This document shows, in pieces, positions 29,536 through 55,228 of a DNA stretch of 64,000 nucleotides; within the stretch, counting starts at the first letter, position 1; every line of letters begins with the position of its first letter. Under the pieces are notes generated by a model that was given only the letters and a program-made list of their open reading frames with translations, made no database searches and was not told the DNA's origin. Location of the stretch: assembly GCA_944322715.1 (NCBI GenBank), contig CALUPT010000002.1, positions 1 through 64,000 on the forward strand, written 5' to 3'. The DNA comes from an uncultured Bacteroidales bacterium. GTDB lineage: Bacteria > Bacteroidota > Bacteroidia > Bacteroidales > UBA932. The translations under genes and the position numbers were made by a program.

Positions 29536-30849
29536 ATGCTGCATCTGCTCACGGATACCCTGCGCAATTCAGTGCTTATCACGGGCATCGTCATTATCAT
29601 GATGATGATGATCGAATCGTTCAATATAGAGTCGCACGGCCGGCTTTTCAGCAAGGTGAAAGGAAGCAGCCTGAGACAGGTGATCCTCGCATCGGTCCTC
29701 GGATCGATCCCTGGATGCATCGGAGGATTCGCTACGGTATCCCTGTACTCCAGACGGCTGCTGAGTTTCGGTGCGCTGACAGCCATGATGATAGCTTCAT
29801 CCGGAGATGAAGCCTTCGTCATGCTTGCCATGATGCCGGACAGGGCGCTGTGGATATTCGCCATCCTGTTTGCCGTAGCGGTATTCTCCGGAGTGGCAAT
29901 CGACCGGATAACAAAGACATGTCATCCTGAACAATCCGCAAACTGTCATCCTGAACAATCCGTAAACTGTCATCCTGAACAATCCGTAAACTGTCATCCT
30001 GAGCGTAGCGAAGGATCTGCGGAAGATGCCAATCCAGATTCTTCGCTGCCGCTCAGAATGACATCACAGCCGCTCAGAATGACATCACCGCAAACCGGAA
30101 TGACGGCACAACCGCCCGGAATGACGGCACCGCAAACCGAAATGACAGCAAAAGGAAAGGAAGGTCCGATGGCAGAAAAGGACGGGACAAAACCGGAACC
30201 GGAAAGACAGACAGATCCGGCAGAGAAGCCTGCCGGGCAGGATACGGAACGGCGCAGCCTGACGTGGCGGAGAATCGTGCTGACAGCGGTCATCATCCTC
30301 TTTGCCGTCGCCCTCGCCGCAGGATGGATGGAGCACGATCACGCAGTCCCTGAGACCGGAAAGATCCGGCTCGATCTCCTGAGCGAATGGTGGATGAACC
30401 TGATTTTCGCCATACTGTGCATCATAATGCTGATAATCCTCTGTTTCAGGAGCGACAGGTTCATCAAGGAGACCCTGTGGCATCATGTCCTGCAGAAACA
30501 TCTGCCGAACATATTCGCATGGACATTCGGAGTGCTTCTGCTGATCGGGATACTGTCCGAATATATAGACCTCGACAGATGGGTCAGCGACAACACGGCC
30601 CTCATGATACTGCTTGCAGTGGCAATCGGAATCATACCCGAATCAGGACCGCACCTGATCTTCGTTACCATGTATGCAAGCGGAATAGTTCCGCTCCCTG
30701 TCCTTCTCGCCAGCAGTATCTCCCAGGACGGACACTCCTCCCTTCCGCTTCTGGCCGAAGACAAAAGGAGTTTCGTCTATGCGAAACTCCTCAACTGCAT
30801 CATCGCCCTCATTGTCGGATTCGGCACTATGCTTCTTTTTCAGTCATAG
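29536..30849 (+). CDS. Putative manganese/arsenic-type efflux membrane protein with in-frame repeat insertion
   Basis: A 437-residue membrane protein. The two halves, about residues 1-127 and 235-437, are hydrophobic with four or more membrane segments each, and match a Bacteroidetes family annotated as putative manganese transporter or arsenic efflux protein (IESFNIES, SGDEAFVML, IPESGPHLIF, SQDGHSSLPLL). Between them lies a hydrophilic loop. Residues about 129-206 of the loop are translated from an intergenic repeat family, with CHPEQSVN repeated, then CHPERSEGSAED and several RMT/GMTA units. The 24-base repeat period keeps the frame open. The ion carried is inferred from the family only. 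Its end overlaps the convergent PCMD gene by 10 bases. Confidence 0.8.
   Translation: MLHLLTDTLRNSVLITGIVIIMMMMIESFNIESHGRLFSKVKGSSLRQVILASVLGSIPGCIGGFATVSLYSRRLLSFGALTAMMIASSGDEAFVMLAMMPDRALWIFAILFAVAVFSGVAIDRITKTCHPEQSANCHPEQSVNCHPEQSVNCHPERSEGSAEDANPDSSLPLRMTSQPLRMTSPQTGMTAQPPGMTAPQTEMTAKGKEGPMAEKDGTKPEPERQTDPAEKPAGQDTERRSLTWRRIVLTAVIILFAVALAAGWMEHDHAVPETGKIRLDLLSEWWMNLIFAILCIIMLIILCFRSDRFIKETLWHHVLQKHLPNIFAWTFGVLLLIGILSEYIDLDRWVSDNTALMILLAVAIGIIPESGPHLIFVTMYASGIVPLPVLLASSISQDGHSSLPLLAEDKRSFVYAKLLNCIIALIVGFGTMLLFQS
29920..30152. repeat. Intergenic repeat element inserted inside a gene
   Basis: Three tandem 24-base units beginning TGTCATCCTGAACAATCCG at 29920, 29944 and 29968, then a fourth arm TGTCATCCTGAGCGTAGCG... 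at 29992 ending GGATCT, a short centre, and the opposite arm AGATTCTTCGCTG...CAGAATGACA (30036-30063). Further partial arms follow to about 30152. This is the same family as at 33375, 37141, 54837 and 62298. Here all of it is read as protein. Confidence 0.8.
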
Positions 30850-33342: not shown

Positions 33343-33374
33343 TACACCAATGTTTTTTCTTTTTCTTTATCAGC

Positions 33375-33565
33375 AGATCCTTCACTCCGCCTGCGGCTAC
33401 GTTCAGGATGACATAACCCATCGTTCAGGATGACAAGCCCCGTCTTGCCGTCATTTGGACTTGCCCGTTCAGGATGACAGTAAAGGCATGACTTACTTGT
33501 CATTCTGAGCAGACCTTTGTCATTCTGAGCAGACCTTTGTCATTCTGAGCGTCAGCGAAGAATCT
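33375..33565. repeat. Inverted-arm repeat element (copy 2)
   Basis: The left arm begins AGATCCTTCACTCCGCC, and the right arm TGTCATTCTGAGCGTCAGCG ends AATCT at 33565. The outer right arm is tandemly repeated (TGTCATTCTGAGCAGACCT at period 21 near 33500-33540). It ends 3 bases before the stop codon of the gene at 33569-35785. Confidence 0.8.
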
Positions 33566-33568
33566 GCA

Positions 33569-35785
33569 TCAGTCCAGTTCCGCCGGGTCATACACAAAGG
33601 AGAACTCATCCAGATAGAGGGTGCTGCCCACTCCTCCGGTGAAATAGTCCCCGTACTTGCTGGCCGCCGCCACTATCACGATATATTTCGGAGTCCTCGT
33701 CCTGTCACGGTATTCCAGTTCCAAGGTAAACGGCTGATAACCGTCCGTCTTCCCGAGATCCAGGGAAGCATACGCGATGATATGCTCATCATTCTGCACA
33801 TCCACGAATGTCCCTGCAGAAGTGTCGATTCTAAACGGAGCATCCCAGTCTGTCAATATAAACTGTATCCGCCCTATATCTGTCTGCCCTTTCATATCAG
33901 TATACGGACCTTTCGCGACATCAATAGCGACAGGTCTGTAATCATAGAATCCTTTCAGAGCAAGAGGTCTTGAAGAGAACAGGACTCCCCATTCAAGAGC
34001 TGCTCCTGACGGGATAATGCCACCGACCGTTCCTTCAAATATGCCGGTATATATGTTACCGGCAGCAAGACCTACTACAGGAGCACTCAGCGTCGTCAAT
34101 TTGGCCGCGCTCTTGTTTTCTCCGGTTACAGCAAGATTGGAAGTCTCCTGCGTAGTCGGGACGATATTAAAACTTGCAGAACCAGGATTGGCTGAGTCCC
34201 ATATCTTATAATCAGCACTTGCATTCGGCATAGGAGCCTTCCCTTCCATATACCATTTGTCAAAGCTCATATTATGAAGTACCTGCTCAGTCTCTGTAGT
34301 GAACTGCACAGGCTGATTCTCTCTAAATGCAGCTGTCACAGCCCTGTACTCATACTGCGTACCTGCTGCAAGTCCGTGAAGCTCAGCCTCGAATGTCTTT
34401 GCTTCAGCATTCACGGTCACATCTGCATCCACATTCGTCCATTCTTCATCACCCGTCCTGTACTGGAACCCGAGCCCCTCCGGCTGTTCCTCCGTAAGCC
34501 AGCGGCCGGATAAATCCGCAAATCTCGCCCATGCGTTCGCTGCCAATGCCTCCACCACCGGCAGGACTTCGAACCGGATTTCAGCGGTCTGCTCTCCCCC
34601 TGCCTCGTTCTGCACGAAAATTTCAAAACTGTACGAACCTGCCGGAAGGGATGCGAAGAATTCCGTGAAATCTATTTCCGCATTCAAGGTCTCTGCAGTA
34701 ACCGCAGAAGCGGCAATCCCGAGACCGGACAGCATAGCCAACGTCTCCCCGTCCGCATTGACCAGTTCCGTTTCTTCAGGCAACCCGGCTTCACCAAGGC
34801 CAGTATCCTTGTTTATAAGCATTACAGAAGCTGCAGGTTTTTTCAGGTCGACATAAACGATTTTAGGTGAAGCGTCACCCGCATAGAAAGAACCTCCGTC
34901 CACGGCCGAGAAAGAGTCTGTGATTTCCGGTATATCCTGCACCGTGAAGTCCAGAAGGATGTCATGCTCCTTCTCTGTCATAGAATCATCTACAACAATG
35001 GTAATCGCCGCACCTCCTTCAGGCTGCTTCTCTGCCACACTGAACGAGAAAGCATAATGCTGTTTCGCCTTGACATCCGTATATGTCTGCGTCAGGGGGC
35101 TGAACACCCGGCCATCATTGCCCGTCAGGGAAAGAGAATATGTCAATGTCCCTGTCACTGCAAAATATCCGGTCTTCCCGGTCGCCGGTACCGTCTCCCC
35201 GTCTCCTGACGCGGAAGCAGCCCCGTCAGACCCATCGCCTGCAGCATCGGCAACAGCGTCCGACTTGCCGAACTCCAGGGATGACACCCCGTTGCTTACA
35301 GTCAGTACATAGCTGCTGAAATTGTCCTGGATATCCTGAGAAAACTCCGCAGTGACCATCACGGCTTCAAGGGTAAGGGTCATCTCCAAGGTCTCTACCG
35401 TGCCCCTCCTTACCGTAAACTCCTTCGCCGCTGAATAGAAAGGGGTGTCGAATGCAGCGGCCCCATCCGACAGGGACAGCCCGCTTGTGGCCACTGCCCT
35501 GTATTGTCCCGTAGACAGGGAGACAGGTTCCGTCACCTGAGAACAGTCATCGGTCTGGTATGCCACCTCACCGGCAGCATCATAGATGGTCAAGGCTATC
35601 GCATCCGATGTCCCTGCCTTTGTAGCGGCAGAAACAGCGGATGCCGTGATATCCACATCATCCACAGAAGAGTCCCTGGCCACGCTGATGTCGACATATC
35701 CATATCCCTCCGGCTCTGCCGTCTGTGTGCATGACAGCACGGCCAGGGCAAGGACAGCCGACATAATATTTCTGATTCTTGTCAT
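33569..35785 (-). CDS. DUF4493/PCMD surface lipoprotein
   Basis: A 738-residue lipoprotein (lipobox AVLSC near residue 19). Domains in order: DUF4493-type beta domain (about 25-250), further Ig-like or fibronectin-like modules (about 270-490, with NAEAKTFEAELHGLAAGTQ), and a C-terminal PCMD domain (about 500-738, beginning MSFDKWYMEGK and ending STLYLDEFSFVYD). Residues 180-205 are a Gly/Ser/Ala/Asp-rich linker. It resembles both neighbours at 30840 and 37285. Surface exposure and adhesion or glycan binding are inferred from the domain types. Confidence 0.85.
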   Translation of the reverse strand: MTRIRNIMSAVLALAVLSCTQTAEPEGYGYVDISVARDSSVDDVDITASAVSAATKAGTSDAIALTIYDAAGEVAYQTDDCSQVTEPVSLSTGQYRAVATSGLSLSDGAAAFDTPFYSAAKEFTVRRGTVETLEMTLTLEAVMVTAEFSQDIQDNFSSYVLTVSNGVSSLEFGKSDAVADAAGDGSDGAASASGDGETVPATGKTGYFAVTGTLTYSLSLTGNDGRVFSPLTQTYTDVKAKQHYAFSFSVAEKQPEGGAAITIVVDDSMTEKEHDILLDFTVQDIPEITDSFSAVDGGSFYAGDASPKIVYVDLKKPAASVMLINKDTGLGEAGLPEETELVNADGETLAMLSGLGIAASAVTAETLNAEIDFTEFFASLPAGSYSFEIFVQNEAGGEQTAEIRFEVLPVVEALAANAWARFADLSGRWLTEEQPEGLGFQYRTGDEEWTNVDADVTVNAEAKTFEAELHGLAAGTQYEYRAVTAAFRENQPVQFTTETEQVLHNMSFDKWYMEGKAPMPNASADYKIWDSANPGSASFNIVPTTQETSNLAVTGENKSAAKLTTLSAPVVGLAAGNIYTGIFEGTVGGIIPSGAALEWGVLFSSRPLALKGFYDYRPVAIDVAKGPYTDMKGQTDIGRIQFILTDWDAPFRIDTSAGTFVDVQNDEHIIAYASLDLGKTDGYQPFTLELEYRDRTRTPKYIVIVAAASKYGDYFTGGVGSTLYLDEFSFVYDPAELD

Positions 35786-37098: not shown

Positions 37099-37140
37099 TG
37101 TATCTCTTTTCTCTTGTTTCGTTTTTATTCTGTTGTCCGC

Positions 37141-37282
37141 AGATCCTTCACTCCGTCTCCGGCTCCGTTCAGGATGACAGGCTCCGTTTGGTCGCCATTT
37201 GGTCACGTCAAGATGACAGGATGCACCAGTATGTTGTCATTCCGAGCGGCTCTTTGTCATTCTGAGCGTCAGCGAAGAATCT
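37141..37282. repeat. Inverted-arm repeat element (copy 3)
   Basis: AGATCCTTCACTCCG...TTCAGGATGACA at the left and TTCTGAGCGTCAGCGAAGAATCT at the right, in inverted relation, with two partial arms between (ATGTTGTCATTCCGAGCGG and others). Its right end is 2 bases from the stop codon of the lipoprotein gene at 37285. Confidence 0.8.
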
Positions 37283-37284
37283 GT

Positions 37285-54783: not shown

Positions 54784-54836
54784 CATCTCCCCCTTTCCAA
54801 TATCCCTTATGTCACCATAGACGCAGCCGCTTTCTA

Positions 54837-55167
54837 TCATCCTGAACGGAGTCACCTTCTGTCATCCTGAACGGAGTTGCCTTCTGTCATCCTGAACGGA
54901 GCCGCAGGCGAAGTGAAGGATCTGGAGTACCACATTGGTCCTCCACATTGGCAGCCATCGGTGATTCCAAAGGAGATATGCACCCCGAAGATGCCACTGA
55001 AGGCGTATATCGATGGTTGACCGCGCATATCTCGACATTTGCATAGAGATATGCACCCCGATGATGCCACTGGGAGCGTATATTGAGGGTTGCCGGTGCA
55101 TATCTCACGAGGCACAGATTCTTCGCTTCGCTCAGAATGACAATGAACGGCCGCTCAGAAGGACAAT
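54837..55167. repeat. Composite repeat element after the SRP RNA
   Basis: Outer arms of the genome's repeat family: TCATCCTGAACGGAG repeated three times at period 25 (54837, 54862, 54887), running into GCGAAGTGAAGGATCT, and the inverted right arm AGATTCTTCGCTTCGCTCAGAATGACA-like sequence at about 55116-55142. The centre (54928-55110) differs from other copies and carries two 61-base dyads. With flanks it fills the 445 bases between the SRP RNA and the next gene; no gene is supported. Confidence 0.78.
54973..55106. repeat. Two 61-base palindromic-ended units
   Basis: Units 54973-55033 and 55046-55106 are about 80 percent alike, each opening with GAGATATGCACC. The right unit closes with its exact complement GGTGCATATCTC and the left one with a near match (GCGCATATCTC). 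They are 12 bases apart. The paired ends could fold the RNA or bind a protein. Confidence 0.7.
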
Positions 55168-55228
55168 GTACGGGGTTCAGAAGGATGTGTACCTGAACAG
55201 AAGGACCGGGCAGGGAAAGGATCAGGAG

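Follow-up and report, generated by a model that had tools for sequence, protein, structure and literature searches.

An old insertion of a REP-like dimer was very probably tolerated in the linker of an ArsP_2 transporter and followed by in-frame multiplication of its half-arms, and many other genes of the genus appear to have been shaped alike. The loop between the two membrane halves of this transporter is made of a repeat that also occurs between genes, and it is found in one clade of homologues. Strong selection on the halves contrasts with weak selection on the loop, arrays in 30 genes vary by whole codons only, and the NadE proteins of two sister species differ by exactly two repeat units.

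The transporter and its repeat-coded loop

All coordinates refer to the window, i.e. the whole 64,000-nucleotide stretch of DNA that was analysed. The open reading frame (ORF) at 29536-30849 encodes 437 amino acids and has no internal stop codon. The ArsP_2 profile (PF11449) matches it in two stretches flanking the loop (4.7e-40, 138.3 bits against a cut-off of 32.5), and the NCBI model NF037962 ('arsenic efflux protein') matches residues 14-428, again flanking the loop (4e-42, 144.6 bits against a cut-off of 100). With the family profile above its curated cut-off over both membrane halves, the protein is a member of ArsP_2, and metal or metalloid export is its putative function on the basis of this assignment. 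No related solved structure was retrieved by sequence search, nor any fold match at E ≤ 0.001. The following features were distinguished.

29536-30849, + strand: ArsP_2 or arsenic-efflux-type 10TM transporter with a repeat-coded loop (ORF, profile matches, AF2 model)
29905-30264 (residues 124-243), + strand: entire loop between the halves, predicted to be disordered in the AlphaFold model
29920-29991, + strand: left-arm array of three 24-bp units TGTCATCCTGAACAATCCGYAAAC, reading CHPEQS(A/V)N
29992-30018, + strand: left full REP-like monomer TGTCATCCTGAGCGTAGCGAAGGATCT with the hairpin ATCCT-GA-GC-GTA-GC-GA-AGGAT, reading CHPERSEGS
30037-30063, − strand: right full REP-like monomer TGTCATTCTGAGCGGCAGCGAAGAATC, its tag pointing outward relative to the left one, reading DSSLPLRMT on the + strand
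30064-30153, + strand: right-arm array of 21-bp units, decaying with distance from the dimer

AlphaFold pLDDT values are mostly near 90 in both halves and mostly below 50 in residues 144-236 of the loop. Basic residues mark the cytoplasmic side of membrane proteins (the positive-inside rule) and, since they border the loop at both ends, a cytoplasmic location is suggested.

The repeat-coded stretch covers 29920-30153, or residues 129-206, so that the frame is kept across 78 residues, in agreement with the original prediction. Amplification of the arm in 24-base units, also foreseen, is borne out by a tandem array at 29920-30002 (period 24, 98% matches) that reads CHPEQSAN-CHPEQSVN-CHPEQSVN-CHPERSEGSAED. 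The right arm, too, has multiplied, a point absent from the original prediction; its units measure 21 bp (TRF rows 30048-30088 and 30056-30150). Reading rightwards, three half-arm units are followed by a full arm; 18 bases separate it from a second full arm, which lies on the opposite strand, and the 21-bp half-arm units come last. The two full arms face each other as a dimer (29992-30063) with their tags outward.

The repeat family and its hairpin

The original prediction also held that the loop is translated from an intergenic repeat, and the counts agree. The core TGTCATYCTGA occurs 208 times in the 2.52-Mb genome (25 contigs), compared with 2 occurrences of the reversed control, and longer arms 34 times against none. 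The arm occurs twice in the window at three or fewer mismatches, where none is expected. On these figures a chance repeat was rejected. Copies outside the transporter gene include the following.

33356-33569, no strand assigned: intergenic cluster of the TGTC-tagged repeat with arrays of 20- and 22-bp units, which are not multiples of three
37122-37283, no strand assigned: further copies of the TGTC-tagged repeat outside long ORFs
54830-55185, no strand assigned: another cluster of the TGTC-tagged repeat, with 25- and 23-bp units

A full arm consists of the TGTC tag and the hairpin ATYCT-GA-RC-GNA-GY-GA-AGRAT, in which the variable positions pair. The fold prediction leaves the tag unpaired ahead of the stem, which starts with AT and has 5+2 pairs around a GA/GA mismatch. 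Pairing was examined in 192 arms that differ in their 48-base context, many of them from related genomes and hence not independent events. In these, the outer variable pair is T-A in 111, C-G in 73, G-C in 5, T-G in 2 and mismatched in 1, and the inner one is G-C in 150, A-T in 39, G-T in 2 and mismatched in 1, amounting at each of the two positions to 189 Watson-Crick pairs, 2 wobbles and 1 mismatch, as compensatory change would give. The hairpin loop measures 3 nt in 151 of these arms, 4 nt in 40 and 2 nt in 1, and is mostly GNA (GAA 93, GCA 26, GGA 13, GTA 13). The motif d(GC-GNA-GC) forms a DNA mini-hairpin of unusual stability. The dimer as a whole is predicted to fold at −22.4 kcal/mol (z −6.4), and for single arms the predicted fold is weak (z −0.2 to −0.8).

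Profiles for Y1_Tnp and REP_Tyr_transpos (RAYT) found no match in the window's genome, and the loci of 8 Y1_Tnp genes from relatives contain no repeat arm. Mobilisation by a RAYT in the window's genome was therefore rejected.

Two other repeats were noted. At 54973-55106, amid the repeat clusters, two 61-nt direct repeats that are 85% alike start 73 bases apart. Elsewhere in the window's genome (G000), tandem arrays of a second class, with units of 34-36 bp (GTCATTCTGAGCGNAGCCCAAG...), are found at C4:134122-134203, C5:92359-92475 and C11:114954-115035.

Distribution and selection among homologues

Homologues were sought in a sample with one genome per species, nearly all of them assemblies of uncultured bacteria. 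At a threshold of 1e-60, below which weaker homologues fall, 120 of the 400 genus genomes gave a match; 73 distinct ORFs were examined and one locus (L087) yielded no usable ORF. The window's transporter forms a single clade with L061, L062, L063, L064 and L072 (support 100/100), in which L062 is its sister (98/91) and L061 comes next (82/80). Of the homologues examined, those outside this clade carry no repeat at the site, which upholds the view that the sequence was inserted between the membrane halves.

Loop length changes between species: the window and L061 both have 120 amino acids, L062 has 58, L064 44 and L072 42, and the median is 39.5 in the 68 other homologues (all but L031, L061, L062, L064 and L072). 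The window, L061, L062 and L064 show the repeat clearly and L072 weakly, and it is absent from L063: codon shuffles reached the observed similarity to the window repeat in 0 of 500 cases for L061, L062 and L064, in 3 of 500 for L072 and in 398 of 500 for L063. The L061 loop contains a row of 24-bp units with changes of its own (HCHPDQSA), and L062 has an L061-like layout blurred by point mutations. L064 retains only the right arm with one in-frame copy (24-bp units), and L072 a remnant. Given the unit row of L061 and the blurred layout of L062, the dimer and at least one left unit were present before the window, L062 and L061 split. One or several insertions may have taken place in the transporter, as L063 lies inside the clade without a repeat.

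Between the window and L061, dN/dS is 0.074 and 0.073 in the two halves and 0.578 in the loop. Both membrane halves are therefore under strong purifying selection, whereas the loop is relaxed. In the comparison with L062, dS of the transporter is 0.96 in half 1 but 0.56 in half 2, a difference of the kind expected from recombination.

A loop of this kind in a genome lacking the repeat had been named as the observation that would speak against an origin from the repeat. L061 comes near to it: in its genome, G222, no more than 17 arm words are spread over 2.2 Mb, and the transporter gene itself accounts for 5 of them. These low numbers imply that the in-gene copy is independent of a large intergenic population. 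Since its arms can still be recognised as members of the family, we read the L061 loop as a copy residing in a gene of a genome with a small repeat family, rather than as a loop from a repeat-lacking genome.

Outside the clade, the ArsP_2 homologue L040 (1342-1464) carries another REP-type arm in a different loop that is rich in His; five 21-bp units accompany the arm, and each of them contributes one His. L040 was the one further homologue to score in the comparison, owing to this repeat in another loop.

In-gene arrays vary by whole codons

Arm pairs, searched for at distances of 16-28 bp, are present in 35 of 121 genus genomes, that of the window included, and in 5 of 197 other genomes sampled across the phylum. 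One of the latter, G425 (same class, other family; L302, L307), has 37 pairs.

Among the matches listed, 160 distinct arrays were collected, of which 39 have at least 60 codons of an ORF on each side. Multiples of three only are used by 37 of these 39 arrays (52 of 54 spacings). Requiring Pfam support in addition leaves, among the matches listed, 32 arrays in 30 ORFs from 17 Cryptobacteroides-group genomes; L156, which has no Pfam hit of its own, was retained because it is homologous to the YfhO protein L221, which does have such support. All 32 arrays and all 47 spacings are multiples of three, against 44 of 121 arrays and 60 of 156 spacings elsewhere. Seven further arrays were excluded from the 32 because their ORFs lack Pfam support; five of them are multiples of three. 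The difference between in-gene arrays and those elsewhere is significant (Fisher P = 3e-12, or P = 5e-9 against an expectation of 0.55 that takes third-frame stop codons into account), with both values treating arrays as independent and the ORF criterion, which favours intact frames, corrected for stop codons alone. Counted by family, with six families represented twice, all 24 obey the rule (0.55^24, about 6e-7).

Two arrays in long ORFs, both without a Pfam hit, depart from the rule, with spacings of 25 bp (L156:2060) and 22 bp (L206:1233); the former lies beyond the stop codon of a YfhO-like gene. Within that locus (L156:1540-1650; G000:C5), a second gene of the window's genome carries an in-frame array, of 18-bp units in a YfhO-like protein. 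Long ORFs flank 24 of the rows classed as non-coding on both sides, and the arrays at L146:1479, L164:3992 and L209:1227 (22-, 20- and 16-bp spacing, between long ORFs) may mark genes broken by arrays.

In either orientation an arm has two open frames. The more hydrophilic one is used in 27 of the 30 ORFs (about 4e-6 on an even chance). The frames read are CHxE in 17, QND/QDD in 10, VIL in 2 and RMT in 1; the window's right arm, which is absent from the 30-ORF set, uses the rarer RMT frame. From the whole-codon rule and this hydrophilic preference it follows that the protein, and not the DNA alone, is under selection in the array-bearing genes.

Host genes

Host identities were taken from Pfam labels, and gene names beyond these labels are our reading. 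The hosts are an NRPS linker, NAD synthase (NadE, two), TruB, the anticodon-binding domain of a class I tRNA synthetase, a ferredoxin-type protein, MurE (two), YfhO (two), lipoate ligase, RecO, DnaX, an ArgD-type aminotransferase (two), an MFS transporter (two), a THUMP-like protein, MurB, an RNA-methyltransferase-like protein, an NtrC-type regulator (between the receiver and AAA domains), a beta-galactosidase, a TolC-type OEP, a cytidylyltransferase-like protein, an Fe/Mn SOD, an S9-type hydrolase, an ArgC-type semialdehyde dehydrogenase, an HI0933-like flavoprotein and ArsP_2 (two).

In alignments, the same loop is invaded in both members of five host pairs. The two NadE proteins, from sister species and identical at 456 of 477 aligned residues, have 2 and 4 units of 24 bp, a difference of exactly 16 residues. 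Arrays in the ArgD and YfhO pairs run in opposite orientations in the two species, which may reflect reinvasion or the loss of different halves from one ancestral dimer.

Origin of the loop

The following sequence of events would account for these data. A TGTC-tagged REP-like dimer entered the hydrophilic linker of an ArsP_2 transporter long ago, in an ancestor of all or part of the six-member Cryptobacteroides clade. Because no mobiliser was found, we can only infer that it arrived by transposition through some such agent. Each arm being stop-free in two of three frames, the dimer could be read through as protein. Its outer half-arms (TGTCATYCTGARC plus spacer) would then have multiplied in tandem in place, presumably by slippage or by unequal recombination between short direct repeats. 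Selection would have removed length variants that break the frame, and the elimination of changes other than multiples of three would explain why left units of 24 bp and right units of 21 bp (24 bp in L064) remain. The outcome would be a long disordered loop that serves as a flexible linker, probably tolerated rather than beneficial. The same process would act on many genes of the genus, at sites where the protein has a surface loop or linker able to accommodate it.

A pseudogene or an assembly artefact is highly improbable as an explanation. The sources are mostly metagenome assemblies and short repeats are prone to mis-assembly, but the separately deposited assembly of L061 carries a related yet different array. 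The six orthologues are free of stop codons, and the dN/dS of their halves (0.05-0.13) speaks against a pseudogene. We also consider it unlikely that the in-gene dimer works as a nucleic acid, that is as an mRNA or DNA hairpin tuning translation, decay or transcription with the protein loop as a by-product. The strong predicted fold of the dimer would suit such a role, and for other bacteria an action of REPs on mRNA is assumed (PMC3733652). Single arms lack this folding strength, though, and L062 has lost the palindrome through point changes while its gene is still conserved.

Slightly less likely still is exaptation, in which units are kept for their metal-binding residues, CHPE supplying one Cys-His pair per eight residues in a metal exporter. 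The relatives of the transporter often have Cys/His-rich loops (0-27 Cys plus His, median 6, in 37 other genus homologues), there are 6 Cys and 9 His in the loop of L061, whose units carry an additional His, and the L040 units add His outside the clade. Against this, Cys and His are few in the loops of other clade members (none in L064, one His in L072, one Cys and two His in L062), the CHxE frame is usual in unrelated hosts as well, and the loop dN/dS is 0.58. A broader proposal, to which we give as little credence as to the nucleic-acid role, is that REP half-arms are a standing source in the genus of new linkers for permissive loops, changing by whole codons, with some peptides recruited, for instance for metal binding by Cys and His in ArsP_2. 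The same loop has been entered in different species in ArgD, MurE, YfhO and MFS, and L040 would be the best lead for metal-binding recruitment. The tolerated insertion with frame-filtered growth is the preferred reading.

Comparison with known repeat systems

CGTC-tagged REPs are described as having TGTC as a common tag variant (CCTC is another), an 8-9 bp stem beginning with AT, a loop of 4-5 nt and a CCA tail; they form dimers of often non-identical units, occur in Bacteroidetes and have no dedicated transposase (Di Nocera et al. 2013; PMC3733652). The same paper reports intragenic units, which encode 43-82 amino acids where clustered, hosts that include TruB and tRNA synthetase genes, and two Xanthomonas species in which recB was invaded at closely similar positions. 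Measured against that account, the window's repeat shares the TGTC tag, the AT stem start, the facing dimers and the lack of a detected transposase, and TruB and tRNA synthetase genes are also hosts of the genus arrays. It differs in its inner GA/GA mismatch, a loop of mostly 3 bases and a CTG instead of a CCA tail, and, at the level of the genus, in the tandem multiplication of half-arms, in-gene units that are always multiples of three and many hosts within this one genus. Because of the differing loop length and tail, the family is called REP-like and is not placed in CGTC-1 to -4.

Rickettsia palindromic elements (RPEs) are about 150 bp long, encode a conserved peptide and lie in frame within unrelated protein genes (review PMC10969869, which cites Ogata 2000 and 2002). 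The genus repeats are likewise palindromic and in frame within unrelated genes, but differ from that description in their 25-27-nt arms, tandem units of gene-specific lengths and a peptide that varies with frame and orientation. REPs in genes, clusters coding for up to 82 residues and RPEs are thus already known from these sources. The GTAG REP/RAYT system is characterised by a GTAG tag and a repeat-flanked RAYT gene, neither of which the window's family has. In intragenic tandem repeats and in-frame minisatellites, the unit is a multiple of three and copy number varies. Unlike these, each unit in the genus corresponds to one half of a palindromic element with dispersed copies, and its intergenic siblings, which come in all lengths, provide an internal control.

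In the open-licence literature, searches found no publication with CHPERSEG or the arm sequence, none on tandem growth of REPs in coding sequence by multiples of three and, judging by titles, none on palindromic repeats in Cryptobacteroides; for REPs within coding sequence in Bacteroidetes, only PMC3733652 was found. In Bacteroidota, these searches brought up no account of REP half-arms growing in tandem under a frame filter at such a scale, with intergenic siblings to serve as a control.

Biological meaning

Peptides of the CHPERSEGS type in predicted proteins can be REP-coded, which calls for caution in their interpretation. The repeats amount to a natural experiment on dispersed DNA repeats turning into protein, in which intergenic arrays take any length and their in-gene siblings whole codons only. 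Some 24 protein families, several of them usually indispensable, have loops that tolerate arrays, which makes linker tolerance, loop evolution and recruitment testable.
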